Shown here in pieces: positions 8,839 to 30,098 of a DNA stretch of 64,000 nt. The position numbers and the translations under genes were made by a program. Every line of letters starts with the position of its first letter. The stretch's first letter is position 1. The stretch is from Bacteroidota bacterium. GTDB taxonomy: Bacteria > Bacteroidota > Ignavibacteria > UBA10030. The notes below the pieces were generated by a model. That model did no database searches. It was not told the origin of the DNA and worked only from the letters and a program-made list of their open reading frames with translations. The stretch covers positions 1-64,000 of the forward strand of contig JAKAJH010000006.1 in NCBI GenBank assembly GCA_021813905.1, given 5' to 3'.

Positions 8839-9408
8839 ATGCGCATCGCCATCGGAAGCACGCGACGGCCGAAGGTGGATGCCGTGCGCGCCGTTCTGGA
8901 GCGACTGGCTCCGCTGTTCGGCATTCCGTTCGATGGCATCGCCTTCCTGACGTTCGACGTCTCCTCCGGCGTCGACGAGACACCCCGATCCCTTGAACAC
9001 CTCATGACCGGCGCACGGAACCGTGTGGACGCAGTGCAGCAGGTGTTGCGCGGGCGCGCGGAGCATGCCGACCTGATCATCGGACTCGAAGGCGGTCTCT
9101 GGCGCACCGATCATACCGTCTTCCTGCAGAGTTGGGCGTGCGTCAGCGACGGCAGCCGTGCAACGTTCGGGTCCAGCGGAGCGGTCCCGGTGTCGGATGC
9201 CATCGCGGGGGCGGTGCTGGACCGGGGAGAGAGCCTCTCCGCCGTGATCGACCGGCTGGCGGAGCGAAAAGACATCCGCAGCCATGAAGGCACGTGGGGT
9301 GTGCTCACGCGCGATCTGCTGACGCGGCGCGAATCGTTTGAGACCGCGCTGCTCTGCGCATTAGCGCCGTATTACAATGGAGCCTTCTATCGGCAGGGGA
9401 CTCCCTGA
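8839..9408 (+). CDS. Inosine/xanthosine triphosphatase-like protein (YjjX/DUF84 family)
   Basis: A 189-residue cytosolic protein expected to hydrolyse damaged purine nucleoside triphosphates (ITP, XTP) so they stay out of nucleic acids. I use the ATG at 8839: MRIAIGSTRRPKVDAV is the typical family start (GSTNPxKxxAV), and the 28 earlier residues would overlap the promoter and the M14 stop. Supporting motifs are VSSGVDETPRS, GARNRVDAV, GLEGGLW and a C-terminal SHEGTWGVLTRDLLTRRESF, which resembles the conserved end of the family. It is 17 bases upstream of waaA, so the two may be cotranscribed. Confidence 0.88.
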   Translation: MRIAIGSTRRPKVDAVRAVLERLAPLFGIPFDGIAFLTFDVSSGVDETPRSLEHLMTGARNRVDAVQQVLRGRAEHADLIIGLEGGLWRTDHTVFLQSWACVSDGSRATFGSSGAVPVSDAIAGAVLDRGESLSAVIDRLAERKDIRSHEGTWGVLTRDLLTRRESFETALLCALAPYYNGAFYRQGTP

Positions 9409-9425
9409 CGGATCGTCGGACAATC

Positions 9426-10709
9426 ATGCAGACATTCTGGATCTGGTTCTATAACGCGCTGGTCATTCCGGTCTTCTGGACGCTGGTGCACATCGCCGGA
9501 TGGTTCAACCCGAAAGTGCGGCGGGCCATCCGCGGGCGACAGACGATGTTCGACAAGCTCGCGGCCGATGTCGGCCGGCTGACGAGTACGCGGCGCATCT
9601 GGTTCCATTCCTCCTCCATGGGAGAATTCGAGCAGGCCAAGCCGATCATCGCGGCGCTCCGCGCCCGGTTCAGGGATCTGAACATCATCGTCAGTTTCTT
9701 TTCTCCCTCCGGTTACGATCACTCGAAGAACTACAAATTGGCGGATGTCATTACGTACATTCCGTTCGATTCGCGGACGCAGGCGCGGCGGTTCCTCGAC
9801 CTGATCCGTCCGACGGCGGCAGTGATGGTGCGCTACGACGTGTGGCCCAACCACATCTGGGAGCTGCGCCGCCGGAATGTGCCGACGTTCATCGCAAACG
9901 CGACCATGCGGGACAACTCGTCGCGGTTCCTTCCGATTGTCCGCAGCTTCCATCGCGCCTTGTATAACAATCTGACGGCGATTCTGACCGTGTCGGAGAA
10001 AGACGTCCGGAATTTCCGGCGGTTCGGCATCAGCAACGGACGGCTGGAAGCCATCGGCGAGACGCGCTATGACCAGGTCTGGCAGCGCAGCGAGGATGCG
10101 CGGCAGAAACATGTCATGCCGCCGCAGATCATCCGGAAGCGCAAGGTCATCGTGGTGGGAAGCAGCTGGCCGGACGATGAAGAGGTGCTGCTGCCGACCT
10201 TCCGCAAGATACTGAAGTACGATCCGCGGGTGCTGATGATCCTCGTTCCGCACGAGCCAACCGTCGAAGCGCTGGATGCCATCGAAATGTCGCTCGGTCA
10301 GCGTCCGAAATCCATCCGCTTTTCGGTCCTCAACGACTACAACAGCGAGCCGATCATCGTCGTGGACAGCGTGGGCATCCTCATGTCCCTGTACCAGTAC
10401 GCCGACGTGTCGTACGTGGGGGGAAGTTTTCGGCAAGGGATCCACAATGTTCTGGAACCCGCCGTCTATGGCATTCCGGTGGTGTATGGTCCGAAGCACG
10501 AGAATTCCCAGGAAGCGCAGGAACTCGTGCGTCGCGGCGGGGGATTCGTCGTGCGCGACCAGCAGGAATGCTACCGCACGCTTCGGACGCTGCTGGGTGA
10601 TGATGCTGTTCGCAGCAACGCCGGCGCCGCCTCTCTCGCCCTCGTAAAAGAAAACATCGGCGCCACGGAGCGGTTTGTGAAGAAGATGGAAGGAGTACTG
10701 AAGCCGTAG
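9426..10709 (+). CDS. waaA: 3-deoxy-D-manno-octulosonic acid (Kdo) transferase
   Basis: A GT30 glycosyltransferase that adds Kdo from CMP-Kdo to lipid A at the inner face of the cytoplasmic membrane. The 427 residues begin with a hydrophobic anchor (about 3-25). HSSSMGEFEQAKPII (about 60-74) holds the Gly-Glu pair typical of the active site. YDVWPNHIWE, ANATMRDNSSRF, VSEKDVRNFRRFGI, VGSSWPDDEE and EPAVYGIPVVYGP follow the expected order of the N- and C-terminal Rossmann domains. Its presence shows a Gram-negative LPS-type outer membrane. It is downstream of the ITPase-like gene and followed 14 bases after its stop by a heptad array that can fold into a hairpin. Confidence 0.95.
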   Translation: MQTFWIWFYNALVIPVFWTLVHIAGWFNPKVRRAIRGRQTMFDKLAADVGRLTSTRRIWFHSSSMGEFEQAKPIIAALRARFRDLNIIVSFFSPSGYDHSKNYKLADVITYIPFDSRTQARRFLDLIRPTAAVMVRYDVWPNHIWELRRRNVPTFIANATMRDNSSRFLPIVRSFHRALYNNLTAILTVSEKDVRNFRRFGISNGRLEAIGETRYDQVWQRSEDARQKHVMPPQIIRKRKVIVVGSSWPDDEEVLLPTFRKILKYDPRVLMILVPHEPTVEALDAIEMSLGQRPKSIRFSVLNDYNSEPIIVVDSVGILMSLYQYADVSYVGGSFRQGIHNVLEPAVYGIPVVYGPKHENSQEAQELVRRGGGFVVRDQQECYRTLRTLLGDDAVRSNAGAASLALVKENIGATERFVKKMEGVLKP

Positions 10710-20578: not shown

Positions 20579-21928
20579 TTACCCGCCCATCCGCTCCGCG
20601 GCTCTCCGTCCGCTTAATACCGCCCCTTCGATCGTGGCGGGATATCCGGTGTCGGTCCAGTCTCCGGCAAGGAACAAATTCGCCAGGGCAGTGTCCGTGC
20701 GCGGCCGGAACGCCTCCAGTCCCGGCTCCGGTACGAAGGTCGCCCGCTTCTCTCTTATCACTATCGCGTGTCGCAGCGTCGCTTCCTTGACGCGCGGCAG
20801 ATAGCGCTGCAGTTCTTCCACCCCCATCCGCACCACCGCGTCCTTTTCCCAGTTGTCGTATTCATCCGCACCGCTGACCGTCAGGGAGAGCTGCATTCCC
20901 GGCGCTCCGGCTCCCGTCATCCGCGTCCGATTGAAGACCCAGTGAATGCGTGAGCCCAGCAGTGCGGCGAACTCCTGCGTCATTACATCGCGGTCGAACC
21001 AGAGATTGATCCCCAGGATCGTGGACGGACGATAGTGCTGCGACATTGCCCCGGGTGGAACCGGCTTCCTGGCCTTCAGCACCAGTGAAGGAAACACACG
21101 CTCAAAGGCGAAGAACGGCAGCGTGCTGATGCAGGCCGAAGCGGAATAGACCGCACCGCGTTCGGTCTTCACAGCACGGATCGTGTCGCCGAGGATGTCC
21201 ACGGCTGAGATATCTTCGCCGGTGCGAACGGCGCCGCCGTGCTGCTCGATGAACCGGACCGCCGGATCGACCAGGACCTCGCTCAGTCCGGCGCGCGGGA
21301 TGAGCATGCTCGCATTCTGCGCATTGCCCAGGAAAGCCGCACGCAGCACGCGGAAGAACAGCAGAGCCGACACATGCTCCGGGCGTTCATTCAGTGCGCC
21401 GATGGCAATGATGTCCCACAGATGTCGGCGAGCGGCTTCGGATTGACCGAGTTGTCTCAGCCACGCGTCCACCGTTATCGTGTCAAGCCACTGCTCTTTG
21501 CGCGGTGACGTGCCGACGATCGCGGCTCCGACCGTGAGAAGCTTCAGGCGGTCGGTGAAAGAAAGGGAGGACAGATCCAGCATGCCCAACCCGACGTGCA
21601 GGGGGGCGGGGAGTGACGGACAGGCCAGCGATGCGGTGCGTCCCCCGGCATGGATGAAATCGATGCGAAGCGACGGCTGAAGGAATGTCAAATGCTCGGA
21701 GCCGATCAGCGACAGATACCGCCGCGTGGCGGCGTAGCACCCCATCAGGAGATGCTGGCCGTTGTCAATCGTGTCGCCCGTCGTCGGATCGACGAAGGAG
21801 CGCGTGCGTCCCCCGGCATACGGGCGCTGTTCCAGCACAAGCACGCGCATGCCGCGTCGCGTCAGCTCTACGCCGGCGCTGAGACCCGCGAGACCGGCAC
21901 CAAGGATGAGAACGTCGGGAGAAGGCAC
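20579..21928 (-). CDS. hpnE: Hydroxysqualene dehydroxylase
   Basis: A 449-residue FAD-dependent amine-oxidase-fold enzyme that converts hydroxysqualene to squalene, the last step of the bacterial HpnCDE route. The dinucleotide-binding site GAGLAGLSAGVELTRRG (about 8-24) is followed by LEQRPYAGGRTRSF. The C-terminal FAD segment reads FLAGDWTDTGYPATIEGAVLSGRRAAE. It is the last gene of a minus-strand hpnC-hpnD-hpnE unit, 144 bases after hpnD; that gap carries heptad repeats. No squalene-hopene cyclase lies in the window, so the end product (hopanoid, sterol or other) is unknown. Confidence 0.93.
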   Translation of the reverse strand: MPSPDVLILGAGLAGLSAGVELTRRGMRVLVLEQRPYAGGRTRSFVDPTTGDTIDNGQHLLMGCYAATRRYLSLIGSEHLTFLQPSLRIDFIHAGGRTASLACPSLPAPLHVGLGMLDLSSLSFTDRLKLLTVGAAIVGTSPRKEQWLDTITVDAWLRQLGQSEAARRHLWDIIAIGALNERPEHVSALLFFRVLRAAFLGNAQNASMLIPRAGLSEVLVDPAVRFIEQHGGAVRTGEDISAVDILGDTIRAVKTERGAVYSASACISTLPFFAFERVFPSLVLKARKPVPPGAMSQHYRPSTILGINLWFDRDVMTQEFAALLGSRIHWVFNRTRMTGAGAPGMQLSLTVSGADEYDNWEKDAVVRMGVEELQRYLPRVKEATLRHAIVIREKRATFVPEPGLEAFRPRTDTALANLFLAGDWTDTGYPATIEGAVLSGRRAAERMGG

Positions 21929-21934
21929 AAGTCA

Positions 21935-21955
21935 GAATTCAAAATTCAAAAGGAG
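21935..21955. repeat. AAATTCA heptads in the hpnD-hpnE gap
   Basis: GAATTCA, AAATTCA, AAAGGAG in direct succession, an AT-rich heptad run just upstream (in gene orientation) of the hpnE start. Confidence 0.6.
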
Positions 21956-22045
21956 AGAGGGGATTGGCAAACGAAAGCAATCATCGGGCGGCCTTGGAAC
22001 CGGTGGGCAGGCGAAGCGTCTCCATACTCCCGCCATACAACCTTG

Positions 22046-22066
22046 ACTGTCAATTGTCAATTGACA
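22046..22066. repeat. ATTGNCA heptads after hpnD
   Basis: ACTGTCA, ATTGTCA, ATTGACA in direct succession, ending 6 bases from the hpnD stop. The same heptad family follows waaA. Between 21956 and 22045 I see nothing else. Confidence 0.75.
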
Positions 22067-22072
22067 TCCGAT

Positions 22073-22957
22073 CTATGCCGGCAGCTGCGTGCGAATGTAG
22101 CGATGAAAGTTCTTGGGAAACTTGTTCCGCACGCGCAACGCGATGGCGACGAACAGCTTGATCGGCGACGAGAGCCGGATGCGGCGGTCAAAGACGTTGT
22201 AGTGCGACCGCTCGATGCGCCGAAGGAGCAGGTAGTAGATGTTTCCCATCGTTCGGGCGGCAGAGAAGAGCACTTTGTCCTCCTCGGCGAGCGACGATTT
22301 TGCACGGCGAAAATATTCGTGCGCGCGCTGACACTCGAACTTCATCAGTTCCACGAATCGTTCGTTGTACGTTCCGGCAAACAATTCCTCTTCCGTGTAC
22401 CCGAACCGATGAATATCTTCCAGCGGCAGATATATGCGTCCCCGCTTCGCGTCCGACTTGATGTCGCGCAGAATGTTCGTCAACTGAAGCGCGATGCCCA
22501 GATTGATTGCATATTGGCGCGTCTCGGCGTTGCGGTAGCCGAAGACCTCTGCGCAGATTAATCCCACCGTCGACGCAACCCGGTAGCAGTACTGCTCGAG
22601 TTCGCTGAAGGTGCCGTAGCGGTTCTGCGTCAGATCCATTTCCATTCCCTTGATCAGGTCGTAGAAGTGGTCGACCGGAATCCTGAACCGGTGAATGATC
22701 GTCCCCAGCTTGTTCAGTAGCGTGAACGTCGAGACGCCGTACAGTGCTCGTTTCAGCTCATCCGTCCAGTGCAGCAAGCGGGCATGCTTCTCCGTATCGT
22801 CGGGCCCTTCATCGACGATATCGTCCGTCACCCGGCAAAACGTATAGATCGTTTCGATCGCGTCTCGCTGGGGCTTGGGCAGAATCAGGAAGGAGTAGTA
22901 GAAATTACTCTGTCTGTTCTGCGTGATGTCCGGTATGATGGTGTCGGCGGTGTGCAT
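22073..22957 (-). CDS. hpnD: Presqualene diphosphate synthase
   Basis: A 294-residue all-helical enzyme of the trans-head-to-head isoprenyl synthase family. It condenses two farnesyl diphosphates into presqualene diphosphate. The two Asp-rich motifs are FCRVTDDIVDE (about 41-51) and QLTNILRDIKSDAKRGRIYLP, with the typical PLEDIHRFGYTEEEL after it. It starts 3 bases after the hpnC stop, so translation is probably coupled. Assignment of HpnD rather than HpnC rests on gene order and on the FYYSFLILPKPQRDAI opening seen in HpnD proteins. Confidence 0.92.
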   Translation of the reverse strand: MHTADTIIPDITQNRQSNFYYSFLILPKPQRDAIETIYTFCRVTDDIVDEGPDDTEKHARLLHWTDELKRALYGVSTFTLLNKLGTIIHRFRIPVDHFYDLIKGMEMDLTQNRYGTFSELEQYCYRVASTVGLICAEVFGYRNAETRQYAINLGIALQLTNILRDIKSDAKRGRIYLPLEDIHRFGYTEEELFAGTYNERFVELMKFECQRAHEYFRRAKSSLAEEDKVLFSAARTMGNIYYLLLRRIERSHYNVFDRRIRLSSPIKLFVAIALRVRNKFPKNFHRYIRTQLPA

Positions 22958-22960
22958 GAA

Positions 22961-23839
22961 CTAGCGTTTGCGTGCCTGCCAAAGGAGGCCAATCTTGTCG
23001 AACGGCGACAGCGTCGGCCGCCGGCGAAAAACGTCGAAATTCTGAGCCCGGATCTTTCCGAGAATCCGCATCCCGCCGTGCCAGGTCAGCCGCAATTCGG
23101 CAGCAATGTCTCGCCCGACCAGATCCAGCAGCGGGGCGCCCTCGGTGAAGATCTCCTCAGTCCGGCCCACCTCAAATGCCATCAGGTCCTGAAAGCGCTT
23201 GCCGAACCGGCGCGCAAACAGGTCCTGCTCGGTAAAGCCGAACCGGTCCAAATCCTCCAGTGGAAGATACACCCGGTCCTTCGAAAGGTCAACAGTCACG
23301 TCCTGCCAGAAATTGGCCAGCTGGAGCGCCGTGCAGATCGAGTCCGACAGAGCCTGCATGGAATCGCTCCGGTAGTTGAACAGCAGCAGCACCAGCCGCC
23401 CGACCGGATTGGCCGAGTTCTCGCAATACGCCAGCAAATCCTCGAAGGTGTCGTACCGATGCACGGTGACGTCGGTGCGAAACGCGATGAGCAGGCTCTG
23501 GAGCAATTCCACCGGGATCTGGAACCGCTCGATCGTGTCGGCCAGCGCGATGAAGACCGGGTGCGTGGCGTGGCCGTTCACGCAGTCGATCAGTCGCTGT
23601 TCCCACGAGTTCAGATTTTCGATCCGTTCCGCCGGCGTCCAGCCCGGCTCGTCGGCGAAGTCATCCGCGATGCGCGCAAACGCGTAGAGCGCGCTGACGT
23701 ACGGCCGCTTGTCCCGCGGCAGAAACAGTGACGCGACGGGAAAGTTCTCGTAATGACTGCGCGTGACGTGCTCGCAGTGGCGAAAACTCTCCGCCAGAGT
23801 CCAGTGCTTGCGCGCGATGTGAAGTTCCGGTGCGTTCAT
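22961..23839 (-). CDS. hpnC: Hydroxysqualene synthase
   Basis: A 292-residue homologue of HpnD that converts presqualene diphosphate to hydroxysqualene. The start is MNAPELHIARKHWTL; twenty upstream residues of the ORF are discarded. Motifs are FARIADDFADE (about 51-61) and QLANFWQDVTVDLSKDRVYLPLEDLDRFG. The SHYENFPVASLFLPRDKRPYV stretch (given here as a split reference to about 30-50) is typical of HpnC. It is the first gene of the hpnCDE unit. The 80 bases before it show no strong promoter. Conservation of all three steps means the cell should make squalene without a eukaryote-type squalene synthase. Confidence 0.92.
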   Translation of the reverse strand: MNAPELHIARKHWTLAESFRHCEHVTRSHYENFPVASLFLPRDKRPYVSALYAFARIADDFADEPGWTPAERIENLNSWEQRLIDCVNGHATHPVFIALADTIERFQIPVELLQSLLIAFRTDVTVHRYDTFEDLLAYCENSANPVGRLVLLLFNYRSDSMQALSDSICTALQLANFWQDVTVDLSKDRVYLPLEDLDRFGFTEQDLFARRFGKRFQDLMAFEVGRTEEIFTEGAPLLDLVGRDIAAELRLTWHGGMRILGKIRAQNFDVFRRRPTLSPFDKIGLLWQARKR

Positions 23840-23919
23840 TCGGAGCCGATGGCGGATTGATCGGCCATCGTGGTGGGTTGAATATGAAGAACGGCGCAAG
23901 GAAAAGCAAGCGCCCGCGG

Positions 23920-24873
23920 TTAACGCACCAGGGCGATTTGCTGTGCGTGGCGCAGCATCCCGGCCCTGCCCGGCACCGATGCATCGGGCGTCACGACGTA
24001 GAGACCCGACGCGACGGCCGCCTCCCAGAAAACGTGATGCGTCCCTTCCGGGAACTCCCGCTCGGCCAGCACCGCCACGGTGCGACTCAACAGATCATGC
24101 ACGGCCAGCCGGATCCTGCTGCGGACCGGAAGCGTGAATCAAATAACCGTCGGGCCGTTGACCGGATTGGGATACGCCGGATGCAAAAAGTGAGCCCGGA
24201 CGGCGCTGATCTCCCGGTGACGTGAGAAGGGATCGACCGGGCGGTCCAGAAAAGACCGTCGCTGTGTGCGGCGTACACCCGTGATCCCACCACAGCCAAA
24301 TCGCGGATCTCCACGATATGTTGCCAGCGCGGCGACGGCGCCCGAAATGCTTCTTAGCAGGCTGTCGCTCTCGAGGATCCATGTCGCGGCGGATTCGGAC
24401 CAGCGGTATGCACCGCCGCCCGTTCCGCAATACAGCGTATCGTTCCGGACGGCGAGCTTCTGGATCTGCGTTGCGCCAAATGTGCTGAGGCCGGCGGTCA
24501 GATGGGTCCAGTGCGTCCCGTCGTCGGAGCTGCGCACGACGCCGCCGGCGTAGGTCCCTCCGTACAACCAGCCACCGTGGATTGTCAGCGCGGTGAACCC
24601 CTGATCGTCCGACAGCAACGGAGAGATCCCGAACCAGCTCTGCCCGCCGTCGGTCGACCGGTAGGCACACAAGTCGTCCGCCGCCCGGAGAATGCCGTCG
24701 ATCATCCCGCATACGTAGAATGAGGACGCCGGAAGCTCCGTGACGCGGGACCATATCGCGTTCTGCGAGAATGTTGGCGTCAGGGCGCTTGCCTGGAGCA
24801 GAATCACGCCGGAGAGCACCGTCCGTCGCGTCTGCAGAAAGAGATCCACGAGGGTCTGATTCATATCATTCAT
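23920..24873 (-). pseudogene. Broken secreted BNR-repeat protein with T9SS sorting domain
   Basis: The frame starting at 24873 encodes a signal-like N-terminus, then BNR/sialidase-type repeats (YRSTDGGQSW, VRSSDDGTHWTHL) and the start of a T9SS domain, AYPNPVNGPTVI. It is then cut by an in-frame TGA at 24139-24141. Translation past that stop in the same frame gives FTLPVRSRIRLAVHDLL and a full typical sorting domain ending QQIALVR at 23920; a CGA-to-TGA change would explain the stop. Between about 24350 and 24240 the best protein-like reading (RWQHIVEIRDLAVVGSRVYA) is in another frame, which implies two compensating frameshifts as well. Three lesions in one gene suggest a decayed gene; sequencing error could mimic the indels. 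Confidence 0.8.
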
Positions 24874-25025: not shown

Positions 25026-26981
25026 TCAGGACGCTGTGGGAGCGTCTTCGACCAGCACTTCATACACCTGGATCGGCGTCTCGAGGCCTTTGACGAGGAT
25101 CGGCTCCAGCCGGCGGGTCGGCACCTGGTCCTTTACGAACTGCCACGTGCGCTCGGAGATGAGGATCCCCTCGACCGGCGCGTTCGATTCGAGCCGGTTG
25201 GCCAGGTTCACGTCGGAGCCGAGGACGGTGTACGACAGCTTCTTCCGCGTGCCCATGTTGCCGACGACGACATCGCCGGTGTTGATGCCCACGCGAACGC
25301 GGAGCGGGAATAGCCCCTTGACGACCCATTGCTCCTTCAGTTCACGGCATTTGCGCTGCATCTCGATCGCGGCCCGCACACAGCGAAGTGCGTGGTCGGG
25401 CTGCGGCTCCGGGGCGCCGAAGAAGACCATCAAGCCGTCGCCGATGTACTTGTCCACGGTTCCTTCATACTTGAACACGATGTCGACCATGGCCGTGAAG
25501 TACTCGTCCAGCATCTTCTGGATCTGATCCGGGGTCATCGTGGACGAATACGTGGTGAAGCTCTTGATGTCGCTGAAAAGGATCGTGACCGTCTTCTTCT
25601 GCACTTCGAAGGCCGATTCCGGCTGCTGCAGCATGCGCTTGACGACGGTGGGCGGCAGGTACGCCTCGAATGACTGCCGCAGCGTCTCCTTCTCACGCTC
25701 CTCGTTGATGAACCGGTACGCCAGAACGGCGAAGACCGCCAGGACGTTGATCAGCACCGGTCGCACAATGTTCAGGATGACGTTGCCGTAGAGGAAGAGC
25801 GCCACGGCCGCGACGATGTAGCCCACGACGATCAGGATGGCGCCGACCCACATGCCGCGGGACGAAAACTGCAGCGCGAACAGCCCGACGAGTCCGAGCG
25901 TGATCAGCTCGACGACCAGCATACCGGAGGAACCCACATCGCGCAGGAAGTTCTCGGTGAGGATGGTGTTGATGACGTTGGCGTGCACGCCGCTGAGCGG
26001 AAAGTCGTTGTCGGTCGGCACCGGAGCCACATCGGCGGCGCCGGTGGAAGCGACCGAGACGACCGCGATCTTCCCCTGGAAGAGCGGCATCCAGTCGTTT
26101 TCCATCGCGTCGCGGTCGTCGGACAGGTGGTATACCGTCGCGAACTGGTAATGCGTCATCGAGCCGCGCCAGGGGCCGACAAAATTGATGGTGAGATTGC
26201 ACCGCGCATCCACCGGAATGGTGATGTCGTGCGGCTCTCCCCCGGGCCGCCAGGCCCCCTCCAGAATGATGGAGGTGCCGGGACGGACCACCACGCGGTC
26301 CGGCGTGACGTGCAGATAATCACAGACGGCGCGGAACGCGAAGCTCGGATAGTACGCATCCTCATAGCGCACGAGCAACGGCGCGCGCCGGAACACGCCG
26401 TCACGGTCGATGCGCAGGCTGAGATAGCCCAGACCGCGGGCTGAAGAGGCGAGCTCGGGAAACGTCAGGATTGGATTGCCGCCGACATACATCGTGCGCG
26501 GATCGCCCTCCATGCGCACATACCACTTCGTGCGGGAGAGATACTCCCAGTCGGTCTCGGGGCGGGGCGGCCGCACGACCGGAGGCTCGTTGAGCAGGCT
26601 GAAGGCCAGACCGTAGTACGCATTCCCGGCCTTCCGGTTGCATTCGAAGAAGTACTGATCCTCTTCAGGAGATGCGGGGGCGCGGAAGATGTAGTCCCAG
26701 ATCTGCAGGGCCGTCTTCATTTCGCCGAGATTCCGGACGACCTGCGCGTACTGCTGACGTGTCAGGTAGGAACCGGTCAGCGCCTGGACGGTGCTGTCCG
26801 TCTCATCGACGTGCACGATGGTGCTGTCGTACGGAATTCGGGAGGGAAACTCGGAGGCCCGGAGCACGAACAACTGGTCGAAAGCCTGCGCGTTCCAGGT
26901 TTCGAAGACGGACGGGAGGAGCCCGAACAGCAGGTGGCCGAACAACAGAGCGGACACGAGGATGATCCCCGTGTCCCGCAC
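25026..26981 (-). CDS. CHASE2-domain membrane adenylate cyclase (class III)
   Basis: The third gene of the caspase cluster makes cAMP (less likely cGMP) in response to an extracytoplasmic signal. I start it at GTG 26981, 10 bases after the DUF4384 stop, giving 651 residues; a TTG at 27005 is possible. Order: one membrane helix (about 5-25), a CHASE2 sensor (about 35-330, with DSTIVHVDETD), three membrane helices (about 350-430), and a cyclase domain (about 465-640). Metal-binding Asp471 (LFSDIKSF) and Asp515 (IGDGLMVFFG) and transition-state Asn592/Arg596 (VNLANRLES) are all present, so it should be active. CHASE2 ligands are unknown. Cotranscription with a secreted caspase suggests a shared signal. 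Confidence 0.92.
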   Translation of the reverse strand: MRDTGIILVSALLFGHLLFGLLPSVFETWNAQAFDQLFVLRASEFPSRIPYDSTIVHVDETDSTVQALTGSYLTRQQYAQVVRNLGEMKTALQIWDYIFRAPASPEEDQYFFECNRKAGNAYYGLAFSLLNEPPVVRPPRPETDWEYLSRTKWYVRMEGDPRTMYVGGNPILTFPELASSARGLGYLSLRIDRDGVFRRAPLLVRYEDAYYPSFAFRAVCDYLHVTPDRVVVRPGTSIILEGAWRPGGEPHDITIPVDARCNLTINFVGPWRGSMTHYQFATVYHLSDDRDAMENDWMPLFQGKIAVVSVASTGAADVAPVPTDNDFPLSGVHANVINTILTENFLRDVGSSGMLVVELITLGLVGLFALQFSSRGMWVGAILIVVGYIVAAVALFLYGNVILNIVRPVLINVLAVFAVLAYRFINEEREKETLRQSFEAYLPPTVVKRMLQQPESAFEVQKKTVTILFSDIKSFTTYSSTMTPDQIQKMLDEYFTAMVDIVFKYEGTVDKYIGDGLMVFFGAPEPQPDHALRCVRAAIEMQRKCRELKEQWVVKGLFPLRVRVGINTGDVVVGNMGTRKKLSYTVLGSDVNLANRLESNAPVEGILISERTWQFVKDQVPTRRLEPILVKGLETPIQVYEVLVEDAPTAS

Positions 26982-26991
26982 TGTCGTTTGC

Positions 26992-27684
26992 TTACTGGTG
27001 ATCAATGGTGATGGTCTTGCTGTAGAAATTACGGGCCGTGACCTCGGTGGCAATCGTCGTGACATCCGGCCGCTGCGAGACCTCAACCTTCTCTGTGCCG
27101 CGGATATTGCCCCCGATCGTCAGCGGCTTCTCGGCGATGGTGGCAAAGGTCGTGTACCGTCGCCGCAGGTCGCGGATGGTGGATACGATCGCCTTGGCGA
27201 GTGTCTCCTTCTTCGACGCGTCGGCGGAGAGATAGTCGCCGAGCTTCGCTTCCAGATCGAGCTGGCGCTCGGTGGAGGCGACGAGGAAGAACGTCTCCCG
27301 GCCGGTATTCTTGTCCAGCCGGATCCAATCGCGGCCCTTCGGGATAAAATAGTTCTTGCCGGTCTCGTAATCCGACTGGAACTGACGGAACGAGTACGGG
27401 AAGAGCAGATCGATCTCGCCCTTGGAGCCGTAGTGCACGACGTAGACGAAACACTCCTTCGTCAGCTGGACGAACATCTTCAGTTCTTCGCCGGAGTTGA
27501 GCGTCGTGTCGCGGGTGATGGAAACGAACTTGTGGCTCTTCCCGATCACGGCCCCGAACGCCCACTGGAAGCCGATGTTGGCCTGGTTCTGGACGGCGGG
27601 ATCCGGTGTCGGTCCCGGTCCGGGTGACATTCCCATCAGCACGAAGCCGGCGGCAAGCAACAACAGCAGAATCGGTCGGGTCAT
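26992..27684 (-). CDS. DUF4384-domain secreted protein
   Basis: A 230-residue exported protein between the caspase and the cyclase. AAGGAGG ends 9 bases before the ATG at 27684 but abuts the track's ATG at 27693, so the ribosome-binding site decides for MTRPILLLLLAAG. After the signal or anchor, residues about 50-130 match DUF4384: LKMFVQLTKECFVYVV, then LLFPYSF and ETFFLVAS. In other bacteria DUF4384 is often fused to, or next to, caspase-like and FecR-type genes; its role is unknown and may be ligand or carbohydrate binding. It begins 14 bases after the caspase stop and ends 10 before the cyclase start. The C-terminal third is helical then beta-rich and not recognised. Confidence 0.85.
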   Translation of the reverse strand: MTRPILLLLLAAGFVLMGMSPGPGPTPDPAVQNQANIGFQWAFGAVIGKSHKFVSITRDTTLNSGEELKMFVQLTKECFVYVVHYGSKGEIDLLFPYSFRQFQSDYETGKNYFIPKGRDWIRLDKNTGRETFFLVASTERQLDLEAKLGDYLSADASKKETLAKAIVSTIRDLRRRYTTFATIAEKPLTIGGNIRGTEKVEVSQRPDVTTIATEVTARNFYSKTITIDHQ

Positions 27685-27698
27685 GGAACGCATCCTCC

Positions 27699-30098
27699 TT
27701 AATGCGGAATCGTGGAAATCGTCATTTCCTTGTCGTACTCGGTCTGGCTGCGCGTGGGGTTCTGCGCGCCGCGCGTTTTGCGCTTGACCTGCTCCTCCAC
27801 GTACTGCATCAGCTCATTGATCGTTACGGTATAATCGTTGTTGTAGTCCGCCTTGCCCTGCATCCCTTCGAGCAGGTAATAGGTAAAGGCGCCGTGGCCG
27901 AGCTCGGGGAATTCCTGCGAAACCTCGCCGGCCGCGCTGGCCGTGAAGACCACCGTTCCTTCCTTCGTCTTCGACAGATCCGTCAGGTACTGGTTGATCA
28001 GGTTCTGTTCCGTCATGCCCAGCCCGCGTGTCGCGTAGTTGACGCTGATGCCGCCGCTGTGGCAGGCATCCGAGAAGACCACGATCCGCTTGGCGCTGAT
28101 GTACCGGGCAAGTACGTCCTGAATCTGCCACATCGGAAATGCCGTCGTGCCGAGCATGTTCGGGTCCGAATCGTAGGTCAGCAGATACAGAAGGGTGGGA
28201 CGGGCCGGTTCGGGAGCGCCATGGCCCGCAAAATAGATCATGACCAGGTCGATGTCGATGGCCTGATTCAGGAAGTTGATCAACGCATCGCGCAGGTTCG
28301 GCAGCGTCGCATCCTTGTTCAGGAGCAGTCGCAAATGATCGGAGTCATACCCGCCGCCTTCCGGCCGGCGGAGGAAGTTGGCGAACGCTTCCGCGTCGCG
28401 GTCGGCAAATTTCAGCGCCGGGATGCCGGGATTGGCGTATTGAGACACTCCCACCACCACCGCCCACGCCTGCGGACCCGTGCTCTTGTCCCGCTTTGTG
28501 GCCGGCCCGGATGCAATGGGTGTGCTGCTGACCGTCGAACTGCGGTTGATGCCGATCGTTTTCGTGAATTCCTTCCCGGTCGTGCTGACGATCCGGAGCC
28601 GGACCTGATTGTAGCCGGCGACCAGCGGAAATTCCTCGGTGATTTCATCGCCGATGTTCTTGAGGAAGACCGACTGGTTACTGACGATGTCCGTCAGGTT
28701 TACCGACATCGAGTAGGACGCAATGTCGAACCAGCAACGGAAGCGGATCGGCGACGACGTGTTCGGTGTTTCCGCGTTGTCCGTGGGGTACGTGATTTCA
28801 ACCGCCTGATCATCCGCGAGGCGCCGTACCGCGCACGTGGCGGTGGTCGAAAGTCCATACGGGTCCACGGCGGTGATTGACACGGGATTCACGCCGATGG
28901 AATCGAGCGTCAGCGTGAATTTGAACTGCTTTCCTTTCGTCCCCGGCGGGAGTGTCGCCGTGGCAGGGGCCGCGGTCAGAGGAACAGGTTTGCCGTTGAT
29001 GCGGAGCTCTTTGACGTCGGAATTGTCATACGCGATTCCGCGGACTTCACACTGTGTCCCGAACACCTTCACGGGCGCCCCATCTGTGCCGATAACCGGA
29101 TACTCCAGCGCGATTCCCGGCGGCGTTGTGTCGGGCGGTTCGGTAAGGACGGTCCAGCGCTTCAACAGTCCCTTGCTCGTGGTGATAAGCAGCGTCTTCT
29201 CGTTCGTGAATCCGAGCCCGGTGCCGTATTGATCCGGCAAATTCCAGGAAGCGACCTGCGTCCCGGACGCGACGTCGATGATCCGGACGGTGCTATCCGC
29301 GGAGGCTGTGGCCATCCAGCGGGATTTCGGATCGAAGGCAATGGCGGAGATTGTCAGGCGATGGGGGACGATATTCTTCAGAAGCGTGTATCCCTGCGTC
29401 TCGTACAGTCCCACCGCTCCGTCAGCCGTGCTCACGGCAAGCATCTTCCCGTCCGGGCTGTACGCCAGCGCGGAGATCCGCCCCTTCATGTCAGCAATGG
29501 TCTTGATCAGCGCGAACTGGGCGATCGAGTAGATAGACACTTTTCCGGAGGTCATGCCGACGGCAAAGGTCCGGTTCGTCGGATGGAGGATGATGGTCGA
29601 ATAATCTTCGTCGGAGGCGTTCAGCGTTCCGATGGAATTGCCGGTGACCGCATCGAAGACGTGGAGGGTCCGGTCCAGTCCGACCGTGAACACGAGATTT
29701 TCATCCTGCACGGCGACGCCGACGATGCCGCCCGTATGCACTTCGTAGGACTTGGTTTGTGTGCCGGTGGCGGTGTTCCAGACGGCGACCTGACCGTCGG
29801 GTGTGCAGGTGAAGAGTGACTGGCCGGATGCGGAGAAGGTGAGGGCGCTGACGCGTGCGGTGATGCCCGGGAGCACACTCCGCTCGCGGAGTGTCGAAGC
29901 ATCGAACAGCTTTACAGCTTTTTCGGTGGACGCAACCGCGAGGAGGCCCGACGTTGCGCTTAGCGCCGCACGGCCGATGGGAGCCTTGAATGCTTCGGCG
30001 TCACCGGCCGCCTCCGTGTAGAGTTGCTTCTGGCCGAATCCGACACCGCTGCTCCAGAGCAGCACGATGACCGTCAGGCACAAGCGTGTGCACGTCAT
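27699..30098 (-). CDS. Secreted WD40-repeat caspase-like (C14) peptidase
   Basis: The 799-residue first gene of a three-gene cluster. TGAAAGGAGATTGG precedes the ATG. A signal peptide (about 1-22) leads to six or seven WD40-like blades (about 35-330, for example VSALTFSASGQSLFTCTPDGQVAVWN), an Ig-like region (about 340-540), and a C14 caspase domain (about 560-745). The catalytic dyad is intact: His626 in YFAGHGAPE and Cys679 in FSDACHSGG. Right after the caspase fold, DYNNDYTVTINE (about 751-762) has EF-hand loop spacing, suggesting Ca2+ dependence. By family it should cut after Arg/Lys (metacaspase-like) or Asp, which cannot be told here. Export means it acts in the periplasm or outside, unlike most bacterial caspase-type immune effectors. 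Confidence 0.92.
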   Translation of the reverse strand: MTCTRLCLTVIVLLWSSGVGFGQKQLYTEAAGDAEAFKAPIGRAALSATSGLLAVASTEKAVKLFDASTLRERSVLPGITARVSALTFSASGQSLFTCTPDGQVAVWNTATGTQTKSYEVHTGGIVGVAVQDENLVFTVGLDRTLHVFDAVTGNSIGTLNASDEDYSTIILHPTNRTFAVGMTSGKVSIYSIAQFALIKTIADMKGRISALAYSPDGKMLAVSTADGAVGLYETQGYTLLKNIVPHRLTISAIAFDPKSRWMATASADSTVRIIDVASGTQVASWNLPDQYGTGLGFTNEKTLLITTSKGLLKRWTVLTEPPDTTPPGIALEYPVIGTDGAPVKVFGTQCEVRGIAYDNSDVKELRINGKPVPLTAAPATATLPPGTKGKQFKFTLTLDSIGVNPVSITAVDPYGLSTTATCAVRRLADDQAVEITYPTDNAETPNTSSPIRFRCWFDIASYSMSVNLTDIVSNQSVFLKNIGDEITEEFPLVAGYNQVRLRIVSTTGKEFTKTIGINRSSTVSSTPIASGPATKRDKSTGPQAWAVVVGVSQYANPGIPALKFADRDAEAFANFLRRPEGGGYDSDHLRLLLNKDATLPNLRDALINFLNQAIDIDLVMIYFAGHGAPEPARPTLLYLLTYDSDPNMLGTTAFPMWQIQDVLARYISAKRIVVFSDACHSGGISVNYATRGLGMTEQNLINQYLTDLSKTKEGTVVFTASAAGEVSQEFPELGHGAFTYYLLEGMQGKADYNNDYTVTINELMQYVEEQVKRKTRGAQNPTRSQTEYDKEMTISTIPH

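Follow-up and report, generated by a model that had tools for sequence, protein, structure and literature searches.

Most discussion of caspase homologues in bacteria treats them as death proteases of the cytosol. In the Ignavibacteria genome studied here, a caspase gene with a secretion signal adjoins genes for an exported DUF4384 protein and a transmembrane nucleotide cyclase, which raises the question of what an exported protease does beside a receptor cyclase. The window, i.e. the whole stretch of DNA analysed, covers 64 000 nt, and the three genes (A, B and C) lie on its minus strand (Table 1). The source genome (3.08 Mb in 90 contigs) encodes one C14 peptidase, one DUF4384 protein and two CHASE2 proteins. 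As its sole C14 and sole DUF4384 genes adjoin here, and do so in all but one related locus, chance adjacency is excluded. A sequence-only reading had described a compact layout with gaps of 14 nt (A–B) and 10 nt (B–C). Genes, strand and gaps are as described provided that GTG 26981 opens gene C (25026–26981), but the gene is most likely longer and begins at TTG 27005. The Shine–Dalgarno sequence AAGGAGG that this reading assigned to gene B is present, 9 nt before ATG 27684. A scan for sigma-70 promoters gave matches no more frequent than chance, such a scan being uninformative for this phylum, and an Rfam scan of the region gave no match.

Table 1. Position of the trio genes and of the elements at their junctions
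Feature	Position in the window	Strand	Basis
Gene A, exported WD40-caspase, 799 aa	27699..30098	(-)	Pfam, structure model, signal peptides of relatives
Gene B, exported DUF4384 protein, 230 aa	26992..27684	(-)	Pfam, structure model
Gene C, CHASE2 receptor with class IIIb nucleotide cyclase, ~659 aa from TTG	25026..27005	(-)	Pfam, solved relatives, alignment
Probable TTG start codon of gene C, 14-nt overlap with the gene B stop	27003..27005	(-)	TTG kept in 28/32 loci
Hairpin GGACACGGGGATCATCCTCGTGTCC, within the first codons of gene C	26952..26976	(-)	Codon shuffle, covariation
Shine–Dalgarno AAGGAGG of gene B, overlapping the stop codon of gene A	27694..27700, +/- 1-2 bases	(-)	Read from the sequence

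Gene A encodes WD40 repeats and a Peptidase_C14 domain (71 bits, cut-off 21.4). A signal peptide (residues 1–23) is followed by a 7-bladed propeller (~27–318), two beta-sandwich domains (~325–520) and the C14 domain (542–799), an order also seen in the structure model (pLDDT 82), where a low-confidence loop comes directly after the catalytic Cys. The closest solved structures, Metacaspase-4 and GSU0716, are distant. The His/Cys dyad of the p20 type, which characterizes prokaryotic caspase homologues of the orthocaspase kind, is present as His626 and Cys679 and is invariant in 30/30 relatives, so that the exported WD40-caspase with intact dyad of the sequence-only reading stands. By these residues, gene A would encode an active protease. 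The motif D-A-C-H-S-G, with Asp two residues before the catalytic Cys, and an EF-hand-like loop at residues 751–762 (DYNNDYTVTINE), whose key positions are conserved and which may bind Ca, are only suggestive of Arg/Lys-directed, Ca-dependent cleavage. Clear signal peptides, read by eye and often with cleavage before Gln, start genes A and B in essentially all relatives.

The gene B product belongs to DUF4384 (PF14326; 59.7 bits, above the gathering cut-off of 27), a family of unknown molecular function. Its model (pLDDT 86.6) consists of a beta-sandwich core and a helical pair, for which a Foldseek search against the PDB returned no fold match with E <= 0.001. The C-terminal tail NFYSKTITIDH(Q/K) is conserved. 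Gene C combines CHASE2 (116.5 bits, cut-off 26.3, residues 18–367) with Guanylate_cyc (114 bits, cut-off 21.9), and hydrophobic segments read by eye put one membrane helix before the CHASE2 domain and about three after it, as in CHASE2 receptors. In the cyclase domain, both metal-binding Asp, the Lys/Thr base-selecting pair and the Asn/Arg transition-state pair show no variation among the complete copies. Such a Lys/Thr pair is typical of class IIIb cyclases that use ATP. Gene C therefore has the residues of a class III (IIIb) adenylate cyclase, in agreement with the catalytically complete enzyme proposed earlier, and cAMP is its probable product. The closest solved cyclase domains are those of 6fht (a bacteriophytochrome–adenylate cyclase fusion), CyaB (3r5g) and 2w01. 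Six cNMP-binding proteins are encoded in the same genome.

The trio is widespread among relatives. In a sample of 120 related genomes, with neighbourhoods fetched for the trio loci, A, B and C are adjacent, in the same order and on the same strand, in 31/32 loci, distributed over 12 genera of the family of the window (f1) and 5 genera of a second family (f5), i.e. 17 genera. The exception (L053) retains B and C without A in a genome that is 69% complete. This is far from the random neighbourhoods that would have spoken against a conserved module. Trio hosts found by name are uncultured Ignavibacteria-type MAGs, and the same arrangement recurs in trio-type contigs of the GTDB collection. Nine further neighbourhoods (L073–L079, L081 and L082) hold a DUF4384 or a C14 gene but not the trio. 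Trio-type cyclases, defined by >=46% identity and >=620 bits (true members score 620–1487 bits), were sought in 22 relatives without the trio and found in none, the best paralogue there reaching <=238 bits. Genes A, B and C correlate in their pairwise distances (Spearman 0.79–0.87), and f5 forms a clean clade in each of the three gene trees. Collectively, these sequence comparisons indicate that the trio is old, vertically inherited and lost as a unit.

The flanks differ between the families. Squalene/phytoene synthase genes beside the trio are common only within f1, where they adjoin it in many loci, and occur in no f5 locus. In the window, two squalene/phytoene-synthase-like genes and one amine-oxidoreductase-like gene lie near the trio at 20579–23899 (-) and probably serve hopanoid or carotenoid synthesis. 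A short ORF downstream of the trio, at 24139–24873 (-), has repeated S-x-D-G-G-x-x-W-like motifs that look BNR-like by eye; it has no Pfam match and may be a decayed gene.

The B–C junction is where the layout had to be redrawn. Since a TTG is kept at exactly the same place in 28/32 trio loci, gene C almost certainly starts at TTG 27005, 24 nt upstream of GTG 26981. With this start it overlaps gene B by 14 nt, and the operon is therefore tighter than earlier stated. The TTG exists because an Ile codon in the gene B tail is ATT, the codon used at this position in 25/29 cases vs 36% in these genes overall (p=3e-8). Within the first codons of gene C, an 11-pair stem (26976–26952) begins ~15 nt past the gene B stop, and no 51-nt stretch elsewhere in the operon is as stable. 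Shuffling of synonymous codons gives z=-4.42 for the window and a mean z=-2.3 for f1, so that the hairpin goes beyond what the protein sequence requires. Among 19 f1 sequences, 87% of cells pair, 8/11 pairs show compensatory double changes, and covariation reaches 0.521 vs 0.247 (sd 0.028) after shuffling and <= 0.20 for slid partners. Stems of >=10 pairs occur in 14/18 f1 loci with TTG vs 0/4 without TTG (p=0.0096, background 4%). In f5, the hairpin is weak or shifted in most loci, and its significance is therefore claimed for f1.

Post-stop hairpins are by themselves not rare, as 3/40 genes in the window have a comparably strong stem; conservation is the key point. A 14-pair stem, stronger than the B–C hairpin, lies 13 nt past the stop of ORF 9342–10709 (window position 10709 onward, +). 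The B–C hairpin matches a terminator by pattern only, its tail having no clean U-run. A genome-wide search for further copies of the hairpin sequence, as expected of a transcription-factor site, found none; this result and the compensatory changes point to an RNA element. A stable mRNA structure located immediately after a stop is the mark of ribosome termination structures, described as insulators against forward re-initiation (PMC7518266), and the B–C stem (11 pairs at ~+15) has this mark, since it starts where a terminating ribosome ends. The B–C junction departs from these structures in two ways: its start codon precedes the stop, and compensatory changes preserve its stem. Because gene C starts before gene B stops, the sign of the effect may differ: the hairpin could hold ribosomes near the TTG or, alternatively, could lower cyclase output.

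A fourth exported protein is associated with the trio. Gene D (~640 aa) has a new N-terminal region and C-terminal TPRs, and it lies divergently and directly upstream of gene A in 20/32 loci. As these loci belong to both families, the divergent pairing is probably ancestral. In the source genome, gene D is on another contig (C16:677–2587, locus L090), adjoining tig-clpP-clpX. Among the 120 relatives it is found solely in the two trio-holding families: 29 genomes have both gene D and the trio, 5 gene D only, 3 the trio only and 83 neither, which gives Fisher p=2e-19 overall, 0.019 within f1 and 2e-5 within f5 for a table tallied by hand over related, hence not independent, genomes.

Exported caspases are less exceptional than the sequence-only reading had held. 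A 2012 survey had already found that numerous prokaryotic caspase homologues probably carry a signal peptide (PMC3501461), and pairs of exported C14 and DUF4384 proteins are common in Acidobacteria. There and in their relatives (L143–L187), one or two exported DUF4384 genes are directly upstream of an exported C14-TPR gene. Like the trio, these pairs associate an exported C14 protease with adjoining exported DUF4384 protein(s) and a TPR element; unlike it, TPRs are fused to the caspase, the two pairs scanned have no WD40 propeller, and no CHASE2 cyclase is found beside any pair in these loci. Deltaproteobacterial relatives are lipoprotein-like. An exported caspase with DUF4384 (and TPR) thus looks like a wider theme, of which the CHASE2 cyclase and the WD40 propeller are the variant found here.

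Other systems share parts of the trio. CHASE2 receptor adenylate cyclases CyaD1, CyaD2 and CyaK of Sinorhizobium meliloti, which signal through the outer-membrane protein NsrA (PMC13001267), likewise join CHASE2 to a class III cyclase, with linked exported proteins (one of them with TPRs) and CRP-type receptors in the genome. They differ in that no caspase or DUF4384 protein takes part, no conserved overlapping operon is reported, and the exported proteins SMc02177 (FecR), SMc02178 and SMb20495 (TPR) are Clr/cAMP targets dispensable for signal perception (PMC5498481). CHASE2 kinases occur in operons with exported LysM/FecR proteins (PMC5192318); this BiofilmReg arrangement also has an exported partner gene directly before the CHASE2 sensor, but with a histidine kinase output, different exported domains and no protease. 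The same domains are combined in cyanobacteria, where orthocaspases may carry WD40, DUF4384 or CHASE2 as accessory domains (PMC3501461, PMC8283722, PMC2853523). The C14-CHASE2 fusion of Trichodesmium differs from the trio in being one protein, with C14 predicted to be cytoplasmic and CHASE2 outside, and no cyclase is reported. A Nostoc CHASE2 gene has DUF928 and WD40 genes beside it (PMC5587647). In the genome studied here, the second CHASE2 cyclase (C28, locus L194:5145–9865) is 14 nt behind an 839-aa ORF whose start resembles a signal peptide and which matches no Pfam family; a weak match to DUF928 is found upstream. The literature search found no paper joining caspase, CHASE2 and adenylate cyclase, and the operon section of the 2012 survey, supplementary tables apart, does not mention the combination (PMC3501461). 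The parts of the module are known; their combination appears to be new.

What do these proteins do together? The signal peptides of A and B, the extracytoplasmic CHASE2 domain and complete class IIIb cyclase of C, the inheritance as a unit and the B–C overlap with its hairpin come from computation. From these features it is tempting to propose, with about even chances of being right, that A, B and C form with gene D an envelope-signalling module: the exported proteins would control the CHASE2 ectodomain, and the cyclase would pass the signal on as cAMP. The co-occurrence of gene D with the trio and the second CHASE2 cyclase, which also lies 14 nt behind an exported-looking ORF, are counted for this proposal, as are the precedents of NsrA-dependent CHASE2 cyclases and of CHASE2 kinases encoded with exported LysM/FecR proteins. 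Genes B and C would be translationally coupled, and their products, made in fixed proportion, would probably touch across the periplasm, with the DUF4384 protein as a subunit or ligand of the CHASE2 ectodomain. More speculatively, the WD40-caspase might act as the switch, with an envelope protein, the DUF4384 protein or the CHASE2 domain as substrate; the propeller and beta-sandwiches of the caspase might offer a docking surface. That a single envelope signal would be read both as proteolysis and as cAMP, as the sequence-only reading proposed, is likewise conjecture. A CyaD1 construct of Sinorhizobium without CHASE2 produces cAMP constitutively (PMC5498481), which indicates that CHASE2 restrains the enzyme; cleavage or binding that relieves this restraint would therefore turn the cyclase on, and cAMP would act via one or more of the six cNMP-binding proteins. 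A more elaborate version, which is improbable as a whole, is a protease-gated receptor cyclase: the caspase and its DUF4384/TPR partners would cut or displace an inhibitory part of CHASE2 or a bound inhibitor, so that an envelope insult becomes cAMP inside, and the hairpin would be a backstop steering ribosomes that end gene B to the upstream TTG, fixing the sensor:regulator ratio.

The direction of the signal, presumably from the exported proteins to the cyclase, may also be the opposite. If it were reversed, the CHASE2 cyclase would sense the envelope alone, cAMP would raise the operon via a CRP-type regulator, and the caspase and its partners would be outputs that process envelope or surface proteins. 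The strongest precedent for this opposite direction is in S. meliloti, where the targets of cAMP include the exported FecR, TPR and SMc02178 proteins (PMC5498481); it holds the regulatory proposal at even chances and leaves the reversed one unlikely, yet worth weighing. The Acidobacteria pairs speak for outputs too, as a caspase with DUF4384 but without a neighbouring cyclase need not act on one. In the trio, however, the cyclase gene shares the operon and appears translationally tied to gene B, so that sensor and output could not be set separately.

Gene D, unlinked in many genomes including the source genome, fits with a looser relationship, in which the proteins share a transcript for the same envelope condition without direct functional interaction. 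Such mere co-regulation has a low probability in view of the co-loss of A, B and C, the single gene order across two families and the conserved overlapping start with its hairpin. A Pycsar-type system for defence or programmed death, with the caspase as effector triggered by the cyclase product, comes to mind because PADLOC finds matches to its Pycsar cyclase models and to a defence-caspase model, but these matches reflect a shared catalytic domain. The Lys/Thr pair is that of ATP users, whereas Pycsar cyclases make cCMP or cUMP; the protease is exported and so out of reach of a cytoplasmic nucleotide, no domain for cNMP binding or of a Pycsar effector is present in either exported partner, and no cyclic-nucleotide-binding effector adjoins. 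Vertical inheritance and housekeeping neighbours also argue against defence, which is very improbable here.

Preference thus goes to the envelope-signalling module, at the strength given above. An exported caspase whose gene shares an operon with that of a transmembrane cyclase throughout 17 genera offers a concrete, testable case of the caspase fold in signalling, not death. DUF4384 is placed physically next to a caspase and a receptor. Finally, the B–C junction, with its natural conserved post-stop hairpin and overlapping TTG start, provides an example in which translational coupling can be studied.
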